NCBI GenBank assembly: GCA_003116975.1
Contig: BGKB01000043.1
Coordinates: 186,001 to 250,000 of the forward strand
Reading direction: 5' to 3'
Origin: Aurantiochytrium sp. KH105
Lineage: Eukaryota; Sar; Bigyra; Thraustochytrida; Thraustochytriidae
Length of the DNA stretch: 64,000 nucleotides
Below, piece by piece: positions 2,701-13,769 of the stretch. Every line of letters starts with the position of its first letter. Position 1 is the first letter of the stretch. A program made the translations under genes and the position numbers. A model generated the notes under the pieces. That model ran no database searches and was not told the origin of the DNA. It saw only the letters and a list, made by a program, of their open reading frames with translations.

Positions 2701-3360
2701 GCGCCTCGTCTCGCGACGCGTCCGGCGCCGCGGGGACTCGCGGCCTCGCGCCTGCCGTCTCGACCTGCCGAGGGACGACCCGCGGGGTGCAGATTTGAAT
2801 TTGAAATCCACGGAGTAAAATGAATGAACGCCTCGCTCGCTCACACGAAGGGACGAGACGACCGAACCGAGCAGAAAGAAGCCTGCCTCCCCGTACCTCC
2901 ACGCGGTACCTCCAACCTCGGCCGGCCGCCGCGTCGTCTCACGAAGCCGCTCTCGGCGCGCGAGCGGGAGCGGCGGACGGGAGGGCGGGCGCGCGGCCTG
3001 CACCTGCTGCAGCTGCTGCCCTCGCGCGCGGTTTGGGGTCTGGTTTGCGGCGCCGAGGAGACGAAAAACACACGGACACAAGTCAAGTTTTTCTCTGGTG
3101 GCTGCGAAGAAAGCAAATCAACAAGCCGGGCACGCGCACTGACAGGGCGCCCAGGCAGGAAGAAGCAGCCAGCAAGTGGGCGGCGCGCGATAGCCGACTT
3201 GCGGCGCGAGAGATGCACTTCGGGGCGCCGCGCGCGCAGTGCGGCAACGCGAGCCGAGAGGTCGGAGGCCACGCGCCCCGTCTCCAGAAAGCCAGCGACC
3301 GTCGCTTTCTTGCTTTCTCGCTGCCTTTGCTGTGTTGCTTTTTGGGCGCTTCCTGCGTTG

Positions 3361-3421
3361 GTTTGTTGCTTGGTTGCTTGGTTGCTTGGTTGCTTTGTTG
3401 CTTGGTTGCTTGGTTGCTTGG
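3361..3421. repeat. (TTGCTTGG)n octamer repeat
   Basis: About seven near-perfect copies of an 8-base unit with one interruption near 3395. Confidence 0.85.
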
Positions 3422-4124: not shown

Positions 4125-7100
4125 TCAGTTCTGCCGCATCCAGGTTGAGAAAGTCTCTCGGCGGGACGCCGCGGTGCTCTCTTCAGGAGGTAACATCGCG
4201 TCCTCCTGCGAGGCGAGGATGGCTCGAATCGCCAGCTCAAGGTCCTCGACCTCTGACGCAAGATCCGGCATCCGAACACACAATGCATCTTCGTTCCACG
4301 AAGTCCCAAAGCGTCCCTCCCATCCGCTCACATCCATCATGTCATCATCAACCACGTAAGGGAGCATATTTGCAGCCCGGACACGCTGAAGGGCATAGCA
4401 AAACTCGTCGCGACAGGTGTCATGCTCCGTCTTGTCCCGATTGACCCTCTGCATGTACGTTCGGGTGACAAAAACCACAACAGCCTTCGACCGGTCGATG
4501 CCGTTCACCATGGAGTCGAGTGTGTCCGCAGTCTCGTCTGCTTCTTCGTGCTGCTGCTCCACCTCTTCCTCCTCATGAAGCCAACAGAGAATCCCACGCG
4601 CCTCGAGAGCCTCCGCCACAGCTTCGACCTTTGCATGATGTTCATCAATTCCATCCAAAGCATGCAAAAGATAGACGTCGAAAGGCTTGTCCGTGCTTAG
4701 CAAACAATCAGCCGCATCGGCGCCCTCTACAAACTGTTCAAACGCTGTCAAAGGAAGAGATTTAGAGCCCAAGGACGCAACATGCGATCTTGCATGATTC
4801 AGCGCTTCGTCGATGTCCTCCAGAGAAGCGCAAGCGGCTCTGCGATCTGTACCGTCGGAACTGATAAAAAGCTCCCCGCCGAGTTTACCCTTTGCGAACG
4901 AGACGTTGATGGACTTGAGAGTATTCATGATCAGTTTGACGTGATTCGTCAAACTCTTGTACACGGACTGCTTCGAAAAGTACAGCAGCACTCGATTGTC
5001 GCTCGTCTCCAAAATCATGCGCACATCGTCGATAACGACAGCCGCAAAGTCGGAATACAAAGCAGGACTCGCAACACTCATGAGTGCCGGAAGGCTTTGC
5101 GCGAGGCTAGCAATCAGGCGTTGAAAGATGTCTTCGGGCAAAACCGCAAACTGAATGTAAGCCAAAACATGTCCTTTGCCCAAATCTCGGAGGGCGTTCT
5201 CTCTATCATCCTTTTCAACAGGACGCAAAAGACTTGGCAGCAACAATGCGCCTTCTTCGTCGCCATCATCGTCGTCGCCGATCCAGGGACTCGGGCACGC
5301 CAACAGCATCGTTTGCGCTAGCTTTGTGAGGTAGGCTATCGGTTGATCTCGCCACAACCTTTCCAGTAGATCACGACTGGCCACGCCTCGCACTGATCGA
5401 TCGTCGAACGGGCTCAGTGACTGCAAGGCGTTCTCATCGTCATCATCGCTCATTCGAGGACTCATATCATCCGTCAGCGTTGGCGAAATCAGCGCCATGA
5501 ACTGGTCCATCGCTTGGCTCCAAAGACCCTGATTCCCAGCTTCATGGCCTGGCCAGTCATCGAGCGCTCCCTCGAGATCGGGCGGGAAACCTTTGTTGTT
5601 GCCCCCCGCGCCGTCGACGCCATCGACTTCATCATCATCCTCCTTCCGTTTGTCCATGCTTGGATCGCGAATCACGCTTGAGAGGCTTGCCAGCAACCAT
5701 TGCGGCCGGGTCACGACAGTCTGGTGCAGCTCGTCGTTCTGGCCTGTCGCCAGATGCACGAGCGCCCCAACTTCGTGCATGTACCTGAGCATCTTGTGCA
5801 ATTCCTCTTTCGAAATGTAGCACTTTTCTTCCGCTATTTTCTTCACTTCATCCAGTGAAACGAAGTTGTTGTCTTGCGAGAGAAGCTGCTTCAAGCAGTA
5901 CGACCACCGCAGGGGAACCTTTTGCTTACAAAAGTCTTTCTCCGCGACACTTTCGAACAGCGCCGCGCGGAGGTGTGCTACTCGTTCGCCTGCGTCCTCT
6001 TCGTCAGTGTTATCGATGGGGAAGAAGTGAAGCCTTTCCGCCTCGTTTCGCACCACAGATGCCTTGACATCGCTTCTCATCAGTATCTTGGCATCGAGTG
6101 TTTTGTGGATCGTCTGGTGATCCTCCGGGTCCGGGACCTGGTCCAAATGAGTGCCGACGATCACAATGCTGGCATTTGGCGCGTGCAAACGAATGGAGCC
6201 AATCCAGAAGCGAAGCGCCTTCAGCGCGTCCTCTTGTGAGGCGAGGTGTTCCAAGTCTCTCTCATCCAGGACTCCCGCACGCCGCGTCTTGCCCAGCACC
6301 TCGCGCATGTCAAAGACCAACGCATAGACGCCATGCTGCGTGAGAAAGAGGCGGTGCAGGGAATGAAACATCTCTTGCCCACTGTGGTCCCAGATCATGA
6401 AACTGACTTCCTCGTCCGGCTTGTGCGCTTGCTCCTTGGCGTGCAGACGAACTGGAGTCTCGAGAGCCTGTGAGATCTCCTTCTCGTCAAAGTGCGGTAC
6501 TTGGCCACGCGAAGCACTTGCCCGCATTGTGTCGCGGACGCTCTTGCGAGGGACAGATAAGCGTGCCGCGACCTTGGACATGCGACGGGACAGGCGTTGA
6601 GCTAGGTTCCGTTGACGGTACGCATATTTTGCAAGTTGTACCCCCAGATCGGCGTTGTCGATCTTCCCACTCATCTTCCAGTCACGTGTGTACAAGAGCG
6701 CAAGATCCACACCGACCGTCGGATCGTAGTCGGGGTTGAATGCCTGATTGAGGAGCGAGCGGACCATCGCCGTCTTGCCCACGGAGACCTTGCCCACAAC
6801 GATGAGCTTGGCACGGCCCCAGCGTACCGATTCGTTAGCTTTAAGGGCCTCTTGCGCAGCCAGATTAAGACTCTGCACCTCTCCCATTACGAGCTTGAGG
6901 TGAGCCCTGATACGAGCCGCGCCCACAGAGTCTTTCGAGTCAAGTCTGCATGACAGGTGTGTTAGTACGAGCTCATCTTTGGCTTCTCTCTCGTCATGCA
7001 ACGTACTCGATCTCACGAAGAATCTCGTTGCTTTCCAAAGCCGCGGCCAGTGCCTCAGAACCTGCGTCGCCCATTTTGGTTTCCCAGAGGCTGTGCAAAA

Positions 7101-10100
7101 GTTGCGCAACGCCAATACGTTAATTATCATCTTCAGCAAAGCTCTGATTTGCCCCACTGTCTTTCTCCGCGTACAAAATACAACGTACTTCAACTCTTCC
7201 AGCGACGTAGAATTCTCCTGAAGGGCGCTCGCCAAGGCCACAACGCCATCATCGCCGATGGGATTGGAGCTAAGACTGCGCTTTCACATCCAGAAGCAAT
7301 GTTGTGATGGTGAACCAAGTAGGTACAAAATTGCAGAGTAGAATAGGTTCAATAGCAAAGCAGCGTGAGAGAATGAGTGAGAGAGAGAGTGCGCAAGGCA
7401 GACGATGATGGAGGGACCCAGACGTCGTATTTGGTGCAAGAGTATACATTGTCGCGCAAAACCGCCCTGGTTAGCTTCTCCTGCGTCTTGCAAACATTCA
7501 TCATTTCCTTCTCGCGACTTACTCGAGGTGTTTCAGGGACGAATTTCTAACAAGCGCGGTCCCGAAGGCCTCCGCACCGTCAGCGCCAATGCTGTTTTCG
7601 CGAAGACTGTGTTTGTTTGCACAATCGTTGATTTGAAGAAGAAAACAAGTCGCAGCAAAAGAGCAATCGTAAAGCATGCGGGAGAGGAGATAACGATGGT
7701 GCTGTGAGTTGTCGAATCAACATTTGAATGGTTTGCAACGGAAAGAGGGAATAGGCGCATCATTAAACCCCTCTCACTCTTTGCACACCGTGCTTCTTTG
7801 CCTTACGCGTACTTACAAGATCTTTTGTAGTGAGGCGTTCTTTGCGAGGCCGTCCGCTAGCGCTTTCGCGCCATCTGAGACGATTCCGCAGTTGGAAAGG
7901 CTGCGGTTTTGCGCATTAAGTACACATCGAAAAGGCAAATGACAACCGCACCGGAGTTGTGAATTTGTAAAAGTCATTTGTGCGGGTGTGCGTCGCAACG
8001 TGAGTATTACTATTCGATCCTCCCGTTCACTCGCACACATGTACTCTTTCGTCACTGCCACGTACTCTAAACGTAGGAGCGCTGAGTTCTTTGCGAGCGC
8101 GCCCCCTAGCGCTTTCGCGCCATCTGAGCTAATACTGTTCATGTCAAACCTGCGCTCGTGGTAAATGAGAGACGCAATATCACAACAAGAGAGAAATGGG
8201 CCATGCATCGGTGGGCGACGACGAGCATCAATTATTTTGAAATTGGTGAGTTGTTCTTGCTTCTGATACGCGTTTTCCTTTTCGGCCAATACTACTTACG
8301 AAAGCTCCTCTAACGACGAATTCATGACGAGCGCGCCGGCCAGAGCCTTTGCGCCATTTGGGCCCAGATCGTTCTCGCAGACGCTGCGTTCGCGAATTGT
8401 GGACATACCGTGAAGACGTTAACATACCGCAAGAGAGCATGCATTTCGGTCAGTCTTTCTCAGTCCAAACACCATTCTCATCATCGTCATCATCATTACT
8501 ACCATGCGACTTACTCGAGCAAAAGCAACGAAGAGTTCCTTCCAAGCCCTAGAGCCAGCATTGACGCGCCATCATCGCCAATGGCATTGAAACCAAGGCT
8601 GTGACGCGGGAACGGTAACGACAAATGTCGATAGGCCCGTGCATCAGAAGAACGATTCATTCATTCATTCATTCATTCATTCATACTGATTAGTCTTCCT
8701 TACTCCTTGCGCGCGCCATTTTACTCTTCACATGCATCACCTACTTCAACTTTTGCAGCCGCGAGTTCGTCACGAGCGCAGCGCCCAGAGCTTTTGCGCC
8801 GTCCGAGCCGATCGTGTTGGTCATGAGACTGCGTATCAGATGTACATAGAGGAGCAAGAGAAGAGTGCCAGGATACGGCAGCGCCGCACATTTTGCAAAG
8901 AAACGAATATGGGGTCATTGCATGCGGTGGTCAGCCATTCTCGTCAATCTGTATCTTCGATTCCATCGCGAACCACTTACTTGATTTCTTTCAGCGACGG
9001 GTTTCGCGCAAGGGCTCCTCCCAGCGCTTTGGCGCCATTTGAGCCAATTTGGTTATTTGTGAGACTGCAAACATGCGTCATGGTCAAGTGCATTGTTTTC
9101 AAATTTAGCAGGAAGAAGTCAATGGCATCGAGAATTGTTGATTCGATTCGTTTTTCGTCAGATGCGCACGTGTGCTCGTGAGTTTCTCGAGCTCCCGTCA
9201 TGAATTCCTTTCCTTGTATAACGTACTCTAAAATCTGCAGCGAAGAGCTTGCCACAAGCGCTCTTGCAAGCTCTACTGCCCCCAGGTCGCCAACTTTGTT
9301 CCCAAGGAGACTGCACAGATTATGTACTGGTCAGTCGTTCTCGCTCCTTTCACACTTTACTTCTTTGCTCTTCGTCACTTACTTTAACTTCTGAAGTGAC
9401 ACATGCTCTGCAATCACGCTCGCAAGCGCTTGTGCGCCACTCCACCCGATTCGATTTTCGTCGAGCCTGCGCAACGTGAGTACTGGTCCTTGTCAGTGCT
9501 TCTTGTTTGTGCGAACAGTCTCATTTTCTTCCCTCATCACATCTTGCAACACGTACTCGAGGTTTCGCAGCGACAAATGTTTTGCAAGCACGCTAGCGAG
9601 CGCTTTCACGCCATCCAAACCAATGTCGTTGCCACAGAGTCTGCAGTTTCAACATCACGCCCGTCCGGAAGCAAAGCAAAGCAAGGAACAGGACAAGTGT
9701 GCCAGAGAAGTTAGGTTTTTGATGATTAGACAGGCACCTCACGCACACTCCTTCTCGCAAGACTTACCGCAGTTCTCGTAAGGACGAGGTCTTCATGAGA
9801 GCATTCGCAATCACAATAATGCTATCATCGGCCAAATCAGAACGATACAGACTGCAGCATGTGAAAGCGACAACAGTATACCAGAGTTAGTTGGTTGGGT
9901 TCGGTACACTGTGTACGTAGCCTTTCGTTGACGCGAATTCATCCTGTGTCGTCTTTTGAACATGACTTACCCTAGGTGCTGTAGTGAGTCGTCCTTCGCA
10001 AGCGCGTCGGCAAGCACTTTTGCGCTTTCAAGGTCACATTTCGCAAGTCCTAGACTGTTCGTGATATGGTCGAGGTGAACCGAATCAGAGATGTGCCAAG

Positions 10101-10301
10101 GACAATATCAGACCATGGACGTGGCACAATTCAAGTGCGTGGTTGTTAGGAGCTCGTTTCACCACTATTTGAATCGATGCTCTTTCTCAAAACCTACTGG
10201 ACTCTCTCTTTGCCCTCGGCTATCGCCTTGAGCTCCTTTGCGAGACCTTCTTTGGTATAGCGGCGCGACGCTTCGTCCTCTCTGCTTTCAGCTCCCCCCA
10301 T
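4125..10301 (-). CDS. LRR-Roc-COR-TIR (Roco family) receptor-like protein, 16 exons
   Basis: Exons in transcription order: 10301-10198, 10054-9971, 9851-9768, 9640-9557, 9466-9383, 9310-9227, 9064-8981, 8828-8745, 8598-8515, 8383-8300, 8149-8066, 7900-7817, 7606-7523, 7275-7189, 7090-7007, 6945-4125. All junctions are GT-AG, and the joined frame of 4104 nt encodes 1367 residues. Residues 1-34 start MGGAES (myristoylation-like). Residues 35-427 are 14 ribonuclease-inhibitor-type LRRs. The Roc GTPase has P-loop GKVSVGKT (479-486), switch II WDHSGQE (613-619) and G4 THLD (693-696), with an unusual insert of about 95 residues between switches I and II. COR starts about 770. A C-terminal TIR-like domain (about 1183-1330) has FDVYLLH, SKAVVVFVT and CRDEF, whose Glu1275 aligns with the TIR catalytic Glu. 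Known: Roco proteins are GTPase switches and many TIR domains are NADases. Inferred: a cytosolic sensor/immune-type receptor. The stop, start and every splice site were read by eye. Confidence 0.85.
7007..10054 (-). repeat. Array of 14 single-LRR exons, all phase 2
   Basis: Thirteen exons are exactly 84 nt and one (7189-7275) is 87 nt. Each encodes one LRR of the form LxxNxIGxxGAKALAxAL plus NxSLxxL. Every intron interrupts a codon after its second base at the same place in the repeat. The introns inside the array (7091-9970) run from 72 to 247 nt and do not look alike outside the splice sites. Exons at 7817 and 8066 share an almost identical stretch of about 20 bases, which suggests recent duplication or gene conversion. 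Confidence 0.9.
8655..8684. repeat. (ATTC)n in an LRR-array intron
   Basis: Seven tandem ATTC units inside the intron between exons 8515-8598 and 8745-8828. Confidence 0.85.
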
Positions 10302-11870
10302 ATCGCCGGACTGCTGTCGCTTGCACAACAGGTTGTGTGAGAAGTCACCTAGGGCTCGCAATGCGACGAAGCGAGTCTACCAAGCGAGCCTCGCGCTTGC
10401 GAGCACGTGCACGCCTAAGGCACGTCGCGAGCGAAGCGGGAGACGACGCGCAGCCCTCGTGTAGGCGCGTTCAAGATTTGCACAGCCCACTGGTCGAATC
10501 CTTGGCAGCAGCAGCCGTGCCTCTGCTGAAAAAGAAGGCAAGTTCGAGTTCTATACACTCATATCTTCGGAATGTGCAACGAGGTCTAACCTGACCCATC
10601 ATACTCGATGTCAACCATGCGACAGGGGGGTAGAAAGCACGTTTCGATGGTACTGTCTTAAAGTCTATCCCGGCCCATCCCTACCTCCGCTTCAAAGAAA
10701 CGTGAAAAGAGAAAAAAGAAGGTAGTAATCAGAGGTGTGTAGAGCAAGCGCGAGAGGCAAGGTCGATGTCTAGGGTTTTCGACAGAGGACCAGCTTGATA
10801 AAAGTTGCTGTTGTATCGGAATTCGCACATCCCAGAGCAAAGAACACATGCTCGTCGAGAGATCGATTCGTGCGGTCTTTGATTTCAGACAGCCGTGCAG
10901 AGATGCGTGATCGTGCTACCTAGAGAAAGGGAATTGTCTGTCACTAGAGAAACACCAGTGACGGTCACGAACCAAAAACTTGCGCGGCCTTATGAAGAGG
11001 CTGTTTCGGAATGATATGGGAAGACGAAGTGCAGCCGCAAGATAGACCCAGTGCGCCTCAGCAGCACACACAGTCAGCGAATGCCCGTTTCTATAGTGTG
11101 ATGATCGTTCGACATTCTAGTGCGTGCTAGCCTGAGGCCGAGCGTTTCGTCTTTGGATACGATCGTCTTGTAGGCCAAGGCGGCAAAGTGGGCATTACAA
11201 ATTTATGCATTTTGGTCGCATTTGGGCAATAAAAACTTCATGAGTGGCGAGGGGAAAAAGAGCGAGTAAAAATACTCACCGATGCACATTTCACTGTCTG
11301 GGCCTCAGCTTCCCACTCTCGTAAACTCCAACGTATGCGTCGGACTTTTGCTCGTTGAGAGGAGCAATGGCTTTTGTCCCAGTGGGCGTCAAAACAGCGT
11401 GGAGCTTATAGATTTTTTCTGTTACCGCTTCCTGGAACCAAGGCAAGAGCTCACCCGGCTCTTGGTGTGACAGTGAGTCAAGTCAGCTATCTGCCACTCA
11501 CAGTGGGTGTAGCTAGCCTATAGGCTGACAGAAAAGATACATTATCAGAAGAACGATGCAAGATAAAAAGTACCGTTGAACTTAATGAAAACTACCAACC
11601 ACCTGGTATGCAACGAAACATAAAAAGACACCGTGAAAACGTATCATGGAACCAACGTGGAAATTCGATGGATGCACTTGCTTGGCCGTCTACCGCAGCT
11701 CGTGGTTGCCAAAGAACCTAAAATAAATTGAGTCGTACTCATTTTATTTTATTTCATGTTTTCACGTACAAAAAAGCCTGGCCTGACGCGTGGGACTCAG
11801 CAGCTCTTGGGCAGCAAATCGCTTTCACGGAGAATAAATTCACTTCTGGAATTGTGAGCAGTCGAGAAAG
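10302..11870. other. Divergent intergenic region
   Basis: About 1.57 kb between two divergent starts, the receptor gene (-) and the membrane-protein gene (+), so both promoters should lie here. It is less GC-rich than most gaps. An open frame from 10360 (MRRSESTKR...) is Arg-rich with no recognisable domain, and it begins only 58 bases from the receptor start. An AT-rich patch (TTTTATTTTATTTC) lies near 11740-11757, about 120 bases before the ATG of the + gene. I see no tRNA-like box pair. Confidence 0.4.
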
Positions 11871-13769
11871 ATGCCCAAGTCCACCGTGCAGTCCTCGCGC
11901 GTGAAATCAAGCGTGCTGTCCTCTACTGCCGGATCAACGACCGAATCGGGAGACATTCTAGGGAATCATGGCGCGAGCAAGAAACGCCAAGCGCTTGTCA
12001 CTAAGATCAAGTCAGCAATTCTTGGCTTCGGAAACGCCGGATTCATTATCACGACGTACATGTGTCTGCTTCGAGCGTTCGCATTCCAGGCAGGTTTCTT
12101 GGTGGAGAGCATGAGCACATCGGTCCAAATTGCCTTTACTGATGACCACCTCATCAATACGACCATGCCCAATATCGCTCTCCACGTGTACCGAGACGGT
12201 GGCAGTGCAGGGGGACTTGCCTGGTTTCCGAGCAGCAGTGATGTGAACGTCATCGAGGTGGACTCTGGAATGAGTCACTTTGTTGGGGTGCGTACAAACG
12301 AAAGCATTACCTTTTTGGCGTCGCACGCCTGCGAAGGAAGCACTCTTGGCATCGAGGGTATTCTCGCCTTTGTTTGCAATCTTCTGCCCGATAATTCGAC
12401 GCAAGACTGCAAAGAGGTATGTCTCGGGCTCAGCGATCCTTATATTCATACGGCATCCGATTCGCCTTCGGAAACCTCGTTCGAGATCCAGGAATTCTAC
12501 CGTACAAAGAACAGCGTGGGTTTCGGAACGACATATACGACCGAACATGTGACTGCGATCGAGCATATCGAGGGTTGCATCTACAATCTCGAGCTTGAGC
12601 TTCGCTCTGAACACAGGTCGAATGCACAAACAAAGTACTACGTTCCATGGCAAGATATTGTGACATGGTACTTGATGCTCAACATTTCCCTGAACGTCGC
12701 GGGGAGGCTCATGACATGCCCCGTCCTCTTGAATGGTGTAAAGATCCGTTCTTCTCGTGTTCTCGTCAAAGCTGATCTGGCTGGTGGTCTCTTCACATCT
12801 CCGGGACGCTCATTGTACATGTTCTTGTTCACGGTCATTTGTGGATGCCAAAACTATCTCTTTTTGGACGCGGCACTCTATCCGCATTGGTTTGTATCAC
12901 AGTTTTGGGTCATTGCTGGCGTTGCCTCGACGGCAAGTGTTTCGCTCACGATGCTTCTTTCCAGAACCGACTATCGCCTCTTTGCCACAGGGAGCATGCT
13001 ATTCGCTCTCGCCGCTGTTGCTCGATTGCTTACCATGTCGACGAGTCAGCAGAATGCACAAAGCGAGATTCGTGGCCTCGGCCAGGTTCTCACAATGAAT
13101 TGTGAAATTTGGGAAGAAGGCATTTCGATGCCTCTCCAAGCGTTTGAATGCAACGTTGCCGACGGAATGGGCATGTCGGGATTGGAGATTTTCTACAAAG
13201 TCTTCTTTGAGCCTCTCGTGGTCCTTTTCTTCCTCATCGTAGCGCTCGAGTGTTTTGTCTTCATTTCGAGTACGATCAAAATGACACTGGTCAAATCGAA
13301 AAAGGTCAACCCAAGTGGCTCGCACATGAGCGGCTCCGGGACTTCTACATCATCAAAGAAGTACCGCGTCAGTGCAGGCTCCACGATCCCGGGCGTATCG
13401 GACTACGACAAGACTGTTTTGCTCGGAAATCTCGGCAAGAGTGTGTTCTGTAGGACGTGGGCGAATCCAATCTGGACCATTTTGGGCAAGTTCACTCATG
13501 CGAGCACCTTCATTGAAGACGATCTGGTTCTGTACGGACCCCTTCTTCTCAAAATGAACTTTTTCCCAATTGTAGTCATCGCGGGACTTTTGGTCGGGAA
13601 GAAGAGGCTGGTTGAAATCATCATTTACTTCAAGGCGTACGTTGGCGTCCTCAGCGCCGATTCCAAGCTTCAGTCGCGCAAGGAGAACGGCAAGCAGATT
13701 TCTGAATATGTTGCTGAGTACGACTATGACAACATGCCCACACTCCTCAACGGTGCTCCCTTGCAGTGA
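11871..13769 (+). CDS. Orphan multi-pass membrane protein
   Basis: A 632-residue single-exon protein that I do not recognise. Seen: a Ser/Thr-rich cytosolic-type N-terminus (1-45) ending in KKRQ; a first hydrophobic segment at about 49-76; a large loop (77-258) with NxS/T sites and Cys at about 154, 169, 180, 184 and 236; then hydrophobic segments at about 263-281, 314-334, 344-364, 370-388 and 445-466; and a Ser-rich, Lys-rich cytosolic-type tail, with another weak hydrophobic stretch near 562-572 (FFPIVVIAGLLVG). The topology suggests one large cysteine-bearing extracellular loop followed by a bundle of five helices. The start is the first ATG in frame. Function unknown; no transporter or channel motif is visible. 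Confidence 0.75.
   Translation: MPKSTVQSSRVKSSVLSSTAGSTTESGDILGNHGASKKRQALVTKIKSAILGFGNAGFIITTYMCLLRAFAFQAGFLVESMSTSVQIAFTDDHLINTTMPNIALHVYRDGGSAGGLAWFPSSSDVNVIEVDSGMSHFVGVRTNESITFLASHACEGSTLGIEGILAFVCNLLPDNSTQDCKEVCLGLSDPYIHTASDSPSETSFEIQEFYRTKNSVGFGTTYTTEHVTAIEHIEGCIYNLELELRSEHRSNAQTKYYVPWQDIVTWYLMLNISLNVAGRLMTCPVLLNGVKIRSSRVLVKADLAGGLFTSPGRSLYMFLFTVICGCQNYLFLDAALYPHWFVSQFWVIAGVASTASVSLTMLLSRTDYRLFATGSMLFALAAVARLLTMSTSQQNAQSEIRGLGQVLTMNCEIWEEGISMPLQAFECNVADGMGMSGLEIFYKVFFEPLVVLFFLIVALECFVFISSTIKMTLVKSKKVNPSGSHMSGSGTSTSSKKYRVSAGSTIPGVSDYDKTVLLGNLGKSVFCRTWANPIWTILGKFTHASTFIEDDLVLYGPLLLKMNFFPIVVIAGLLVGKKRLVEIIIYFKAYVGVLSADSKLQSRKENGKQISEYVAEYDYDNMPTLLNGAPLQ

Follow-up and report, generated by a model that had tools for sequence, protein, structure and literature searches.

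Proteins in which a TIR domain is joined to the Roc-COR pair of the Roco family have already been described in several eukaryotes. In Aplysia, leucine-rich repeats (LRRs), ROC, COR and TIR occur in one protein, for which a GTPase-linked Toll-like receptor (TLR) signalling route was proposed (PMC9334734); Chondrus, with five ROCOs, has a TPR-ROCO-TIR protein (PMC11378527), and TIR is listed among the ROC-COR proteins of Trichoplax (PMC4104024), which has at least 17 ROCOs (PMC11378527). Here we describe a gene for an LRR-Roc-COR-TIR protein on the minus strand of a 64,000-nucleotide stretch of the thraustochytrid Aurantiochytrium sp. KH105 (the window, G000:C43:186001-250000), together with the large family of which it is a member. 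The window gene encodes a receptor-type Roco protein, probably intracellular. Its family most likely serves to recognise nonself or danger and would thus do the work of an NLR on a Roco chassis; we infer this role from other members, whose LRR cassettes or WD40 propellers change fast on the face that would meet a ligand.

The Aplysia proteins have all four domains in common with the window family, although the order of these domains, exon cassettes and hypervariability go unmentioned in the passages of the source (PMC9334734); they are encoded by few genes in an animal, are classed as TLRs and carry an extra MBT or EF-hand domain (PMC9334734). In Chondrus and Trichoplax, TIR is linked to Roc-COR as in the window protein, but the sensor is different or, in the accounts at hand, unstated, and the genes are few. 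The ROCOs of brown algae, proposed to be immune receptors, are encoded with one LRR per 72-bp phase-2 exon and show duplication and shuffling of LRR exons; there are 9-47 genes per species, and the source gives LRR-ROC-COR, without TIR or WD40, as their sole domain structure (PMC11378527). The window gene resembles them in its N-terminal LRRs on a Roco switch and its phase-2 exon-per-LRR build, and both hosts are stramenopiles. In contrast, its LRR exons are 84 or 87 bp long, it has a TIR domain, and its family also uses WD40. Four or fewer Roco genes were reported for unicellular SAR species, Schizochytrium aggregatum being named, and the expansion of Roco genes was suggested to be tied to multicellularity (PMC11378527).

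In bacterial conflict systems, AP-GTPase-COR serves as a switch (PMC7159879). It is of the Roc-COR type, as here, but those systems are multi-gene, and a Roc-COR-TIR protein is not mentioned in the available part of that source (PMC7159879). A review of Roco topology places every prokaryotic Roco identified to date in the LRR-RocCOR group. A prokaryotic source of the family was considered and rejected, no relative having been confirmed in two scans of GTDB contigs, with P0131 (13 patterns matched) and alignment A3 (105 matched); distant bacterial Roco-TIRs may nevertheless exist, because such patterns reach close relatives best. Plant TIR-NB-LRR proteins and animal NLRs share with the window protein the sensor-switch-effector plan with LRRs, and in plants also TIR, but their switch is a STAND ATPase and the order of their parts is unlike that found here. 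In comparison with a Toll-like receptor, Roc-COR separates the LRRs from TIR. The nearest solved Roc-COR relatives of the family, CtRoco and LRRK2, lack TIR, and LRRK2 carries a kinase and WD40 at its C-terminal end.

A literature search of titles and abstracts, with most subscription papers lying outside it, returned nothing on a Roco-TIR family or on thraustochytrid immune receptors. What is new here is the scale of the family, its swapped sensors and its unicellular host, whereas the Roco-TIR joining itself was already known. The suggestion of a first-pass annotation of this DNA, made from the sequence alone, that such a domain order would be a separate solution to the sensor-switch-effector design is not supported in that form, since the Aplysia, Chondrus and Trichoplax proteins in print give the combination precedents. 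That annotation also overlooked the roughly 100-copy family, with WD40 as its largest class, and the exon-per-LRR build.

The window gene and its domains

The protein of 1367 residues is encoded at 10301-4125 on the minus strand by 16 exons, with no internal stop after splicing; its coordinates (4125..10301) and length had been given exactly by the first-pass annotation. All 15 introns are GT-AG, in phase 2 and 61-247 nt long. The start codon ATG at 10301 lies upstream of the LRR exons, 14 LRRs are encoded one per exon (13 of 84 nt and one of 87 nt, 14/14 in phase 2), and Roc, COR and TIR are all within the single last exon downstream of them. The LRR exons listed below are supported by the splice model and a second copy of the gene and, with the exception of LRR exon 13, by a shuffle control.

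10198..10301, minus strand: exon 1, ATG and 34-residue N-terminus, phase 2 (donor GT; second copy agrees at 101/104 nt)
9971..10054, minus strand: LRR exon 1, 84 nt, phase 2
9768..9851, minus strand: LRR exon 2, 84 nt, phase 2
9557..9640, minus strand: LRR exon 3, 84 nt, phase 2
9383..9466, minus strand: LRR exon 4, 84 nt, phase 2
9227..9310, minus strand: LRR exon 5, 84 nt, phase 2
8981..9064, minus strand: LRR exon 6, 84 nt, phase 2
8745..8828, minus strand: LRR exon 7, 84 nt, phase 2
8515..8598, minus strand: LRR exon 8, 84 nt, phase 2
8300..8383, minus strand: LRR exon 9, 84 nt, phase 2
8066..8149, minus strand: LRR exon 10, 84 nt, phase 2
7817..7900, minus strand: LRR exon 11, 84 nt, phase 2
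7523..7606, minus strand: LRR exon 12, 84 nt, phase 2
7189..7275, minus strand: LRR exon 13, 87 nt, phase 2
7007..7090, minus strand: LRR exon 14, 84 nt, phase 2
4125..6945, minus strand: last exon, linker, Roc GTPase, COR, TIR and stop codon (Pfam Roc, COR-A and TIR_2 above cut-offs; Roc motifs)
4128..4751, minus strand: TIR and tail, residues 1160-1367, with acidic insert and CRDEF glutamate (alignment A1; family profile against TIR-1)

Between 6946 and 10301, open phase-2 stretches of 84 nt flanked by AG and GT number 20 on the coding strand and 10 on the other, against a mean of 3.3 and a maximum of 9 in 200 dinucleotide shuffles. Those that in addition bear the LRR pattern, which was derived from the window gene's own repeats, number 13 on the coding strand, 0 on the other and 0.0 in the shuffles. 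The source assembly (76 Mb, 367 contigs) seems to contain two haplotypes, as suggested by the many small GTPases that occur as equal-E-value pairs on two contigs. The partner of the window gene, locus L033 on contig C46, encodes a protein 95% identical to that of the window and conserves 15/15 donors and 15/15 acceptors. Aligned with each other, the two copies show no gap in 15 of the 16 exons and one of 3 nt in the last; their introns are 93.4% identical and contain 67 gap columns. The ratio of replacement to silent substitution rates (dN/dS) is 0.28 overall and, by segment, 0.36 in the LRRs, 0.34 in Roc, 0.21 in COR with the linker and 0.18 in TIR with the tail; the N-terminal segment has 3 replacement and 0 silent changes, too few for interpretation. 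The splice sites, exon gaps and dN/dS of the second copy point to one functional joined gene.

It is highly improbable that the joined protein is an artefact of two separate genes, one with the LRR exons and the other with the GTPase exon. The database model P0001 does retain just two LRR exons, but the 15 introns are GT-AG in both copies and in phase 2 in the window, the exon lengths are conserved, and the database models P0002-P0005 likewise link LRRs with Roc-COR-TIR. Judged by its sequence, the window gene is real and links an LRR sensor to a TIR output through a Roco GTPase that would act as the switch.

The domain order claimed earlier for one gene is borne out by the Pfam domains together with the splice model and the second copy, and the profile searches proposed at that time gave the expected families. 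In the open frame 4125-7283 on the minus strand (1052 aa), which holds Roc, COR-A and TIR_2, Pfam scored Roc at 69.3 bits (cut-off 27), COR-A, right after it, at 41.5 bits (cut-off 35.3) and TIR_2 at 32.1 bits (cut-off 28), and the spliced residues 1-700 match LRR_6 with an E-value of 1.4e-47. The Roc motifs are GKVSVGKT (P-loop), WDHSGQ (DxxG) and GTHLD (base recognition). A Roc-COR profile (A2) matched the solved structures of CtRoco, the Roco protein of the bacterium Chlorobium (3dpu, 6.7e-26), and LRRK2 (3e-20); the alignment with CtRoco runs through COR. Neither NACHT nor NB-ARC was found in the protein by Pfam at E <= 1; matches to AAA_22, AAA_16 and nSTAND3 are confined to the P-loop and all below cut-offs, and the sole NCBIfam match is a sub-threshold one to small-GTP. 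By its predicted domains, the window protein is a Roco protein, not an NLR, and is NLR-like only in plan, with a repeat sensor and an effector in one chain.

Compared with solved structures, a profile of the paralogue TIR domains matched NAD+-hydrolase TIRs, TIR-1 best (8.8e-13) and then SARM1 (7.4e-11), and the family profile aligns the CRDEF glutamate of the window TIR, which also bears an acidic insert (alignment A1), with the HKEL glutamate of TIR-1. We take this glutamate to be the catalytic residue of TIR NADases, putatively so in this family. It is E in 18/19 rows of A1, with Q in paralogue L028, and is kept in 27/29 rows of a second set, where the exceptions are P0007 and P0014 and the placement of P0019 is doubtful. 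A PADLOC search gave no match for the window protein; paralogue L029 matched PDC-S66 (1.8e-10), ThsB (3e-9) and bSEFIR (3.5e-6), L030 matched PDC-S66 and SAVED-TIR (both about 5e-7), and L015 matched PDC-S66 alone (0.0022).

The proposed mechanism assigns the sensor role to the LRRs, that of switch and dimerisation unit to Roc and COR, and the output to the C-terminal TIR. A ligand on the LRRs would shift the nucleotide state and oligomerisation of Roc-COR, by analogy with the action of GTP in CtRoco, where it drives monomerisation and a large conformational change with a hinge at the LRR-Roc linker (PMC11052575). The change in Roc-COR may then gather the TIR domains, which would signal via NAD+ cleavage or scaffolding. 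The window member itself would probably sense a conserved ligand or act as a helper.

Other features of the window include short simple repeats at 3360-3420 (3' flank) and 8655-8685 (an LRR intron), and a 643-aa open frame at 11838-13769 on the plus strand, upstream of the gene start and opposite to it, with no Pfam match at 1e-5. Among the neighbours at 14097-56938 are genes for a carnitine acyltransferase, a protein kinase, a pantothenate kinase (Fumble), Pumilio, a sulfatase, an IPP transferase, a WD40 protein, CLU and a tubulin-tyrosine-ligase-like protein.

The Roco-TIR family

Paralogues, which the first-pass annotation proposed to look for in other labyrinthulomycete genomes, are abundant in the same genome. 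A COR-A scan of the whole assembly, in which all 124 candidates were scored, gave 124 matches, 116 of them above cut-off, and at least 91 of the 124 have TIR_2 on the same strand 547-1387 bp downstream, as judged from a TIR_2 scan that scored 150 of 258 candidates. The figure of 91 is a lower bound, since the window gene and several fetched loci scored 'none' and yet carry TIR. Some COR-A matches sit in short or broken frames and are possible pseudogenes, and 58 of the 150 listed TIR_2 matches are not beside a COR match. The Pfam scan of paralogues covered nine frames, a tenth being left out for size. Roc and COR-A were above cut-off and TIR_2 matched in 9/9, the one TIR_2 score below cut-off being that of L028 (24.9 bits); COR-B was found at E <= 0.01 in 1/9, below cut-off.

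Three classes were distinguished, with counts that include second copies and are lower bounds. The LRR class of the window gene (class I) occupies at least 27 places by identity (44 of 332 candidates scored), and a second LRR class (class II) at least 22 places at >=50% identity plus one at 45%, locus L034 (52 of 213 scored). LRR exons were sought in the fetched loci, and in L034 the LRR pattern found none. WD40-Roc-COR-TIR is the largest class found (for example L026, L030, L031, L040 and L041), with at least 42 places, all >=68% identical to L030 (42 of 625 candidates scored); 39 of these 42 cover L030 from residue 16 or before to residue 1101 or beyond. None of the 42 scored places, L030 itself (G000:C154:87103-90414) excepted, matches L030 above 87%, and its second copy is accordingly absent or strongly diverged. 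In class II, the C36 copy (L027) of the gene at C17:618492 goes out of frame near residue 605, ahead of TIR, and the TIR sequence persists further downstream in a different frame.

In a tree of 31 Roc-COR-TIR rows, which has a midpoint root only and contains some long rows, the class I clade, including the window gene, comprises 12 rows with support of 100/100, the WD40 clade 6 rows (100/100) and the class II clade 8 rows (100/99), and five database proteins lie on the same side as the WD40 and class II clades. The window gene has a long private branch (0.64). LRR exons of 84 nt in phase 2 are common to both LRR classes, from which we infer that WD40 is probably the sensor that was swapped in.

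The closest public protein to the GTPase exon, P0001 (99% over 89% of the query), comes from the thraustochytrid Hondaea fermentalgiana (Labyrinthulomycetes), in keeping with the labyrinthulomycete host implied by the first-pass annotation. The NCBI names of the Hondaea relatives mislead: 'Rab family GTPase', 'LRRK2', 'NOD2' and 'F-box/WD repeat-containing protein 7'. Two Hondaea WD40 proteins, P0035 and P0083, have TIR_2 and NPHP3_N in precomputed Pfam lists (NPHP3_N was confirmed for P0083), and by these domains STAND-type NLR-like proteins seem to be present beside the Roco ones. The database model P0006 joins kinase, PH, Roc, COR and TIR and is possibly a fused annotation; P0027, a partial protein from Hondaea, has Roc-COR and, in its precomputed Pfam list, SAM domains but no TIR; and P0034, a Roc-COR-TIR protein, has PF01582 (TIR) in its precomputed list, perhaps as a second TIR, which was absent on rescan at E <= 1e-6.

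Sensor variation and the role of the family

In class I paralogues, an LRR exon and its intron form a tandem cassette of about 259-265 bp, and some cassette copies in L018, L022, L023 and L029 are 90-97% identical. Cassettes were compared in pairs with introns >=80% identical, at four codons that we presume, from the LxxLxLxxN plan, to lie on the concave face. For each locus, the lines below give the number of pairs, replacement divergence at concave and at other codons, intron divergence in the same pairs and, from all cassette pairs, the rank of the concave set among all 3060 four-position sets.

L018: 22 pairs; concave 0.49, other 0.145; introns 0.159; rank 39
L022: 14 pairs; concave 0.19, other 0.052; introns 0.137; rank 369
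L023: 3 pairs; concave 0.58, other 0.079; introns 0.094; rank 95
L015: 1 pair; concave 0.50, other 0.000; introns 0.084
L029: 42 pairs; concave 0.42, other 0.106; introns 0.148; rank 34

These figures hint strongly that the duplicated LRR cassettes of the paralogues vary chiefly on the predicted concave face, but they do not amount to a formal test, since pairs inside one gene are non-independent, silent divergence is high and the pairs were chosen by their introns.

The WD40 class shows a comparable pattern at the propeller. Among ten WD40-class proteins, propeller variability has a 40.0-residue period, the observed power of which was matched in 0/500 permutations, scored on every second period; in a control COR stretch, the observed power was reached by 19/300 permutations. 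Variability peaks at four positions per WD repeat (phases 7, 9, 23 and 25). At the codon level in four genes, two of which belong to the protein set from which the phases were selected, replacement divergence is 0.430 at the four phases against 0.123 elsewhere in the propeller. Silent divergence in the same genes is 0.125 outside the four phases of the propeller, compared with 0.321 in Roc, 0.550 in COR and 0.514 in TIR, and is itself high (0.412) at the four phases. The low value of 0.125 suggests that paralogues have exchanged repeats, with codon constraint as an alternative cause.

A similar situation was described for the nwd genes of Podospora, which undergo concerted evolution and positive selection at four positions per WD repeat (PMC4986451). 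The likeness is one of number, four positions per repeat varying in both cases. More generally, fungal NACHT-WD40 NLRs of the HET-E kind resemble the WD40 class in their four selected positions per repeat and their concerted evolution, but differ in their NACHT (STAND) switch, HET or other N-terminal effector and C-terminal WD40 (PMC4986451). Since Podospora genes of this kind act in incompatibility (PMC4986451), the four hypervariable positions and homogenised repeats would equally suit self/nonself recognition (vegetative incompatibility, mating) or programmed cell death in place of antimicrobial defence. The frame loss before TIR in L027 might likewise be tolerable at a recognition locus. 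The sequence signature is, however, identical for defence and incompatibility, and we regard such a role as unlikely.

Several observations weigh against nonself recognition by the family, and in particular by the window gene. Exposed positions can vary for reasons other than immunity. In the cassette pairs, silent divergence is also high at the concave codons (0.31-0.59), and at other codons (0.15-0.27) it is above that of the introns used for the choice of pairs. In nine WD40-class proteins, mean identity over the whole propeller (0.669) is just slightly lower than in Roc (0.710), COR (0.693) and TIR (0.691). The whole Roc-COR-TIR exons are under purifying selection in ten copy or paralogue pairs, one of which contains a broken frame (dN/dS 0.14-0.42). 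As for the window gene, TIR_2 is its weakest domain call, its TIR as a single sequence matched no solved TIR structure at E <= 1, and it stands alone amid housekeeping genes. Differences between its two alleles are not in excess on the concave face (3/52 concave against 22/299 other codons, in 13/14 LRR exons with the 87-nt exon omitted), and its LRR region has no direct repeats >=150 nt that would mark a recent cassette duplication. With neither sign present, the window gene as a hypervariable receptor is unsupported; the sensor signs favouring an immune role come from the paralogues.

Some of these points fit a conserved Roco protein with an ordinary signalling task in stress, development or trafficking and a passive-scaffold TIR, the immune-like features being limited to other members. 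To the missing concave-face excess and the housekeeping neighbourhood may be added the purifying selection on the large segments (dN/dS 0.18-0.36), the weak TIR with its acidic insert and the long private branch. The window gene nevertheless shares its architecture and clade with members that have recent cassette duplication, and its TIR retains the conserved glutamate. We consider this explanation doubtful, if a serious one. A receptor-type Roco-TIR protein of a family engaged in nonself or danger recognition, in which the window gene is conserved and perhaps acts as a helper or senses an invariant ligand, is the explanation we prefer as a whole, at a probability of about 0.55.

About a hundred Roco copies are present in the assembly; most of them have a TIR output, and their hypervariable sensors are of two kinds. 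The chances are even that these copies represent an independently built nonself repertoire in a single-celled stramenopile, in which a shared Roc-COR-TIR chassis carries duplicated LRR cassettes or four-position WD40 propellers. If so, the family would be a Roco-based counterpart of the NLRs that plants, animals and fungi build on STAND. Should it protect against infection or nonself, large repertoires of receptors would require neither multicellularity nor a STAND switch, and this thraustochytrid would offer a test system for receptor repertoires without multicellularity.

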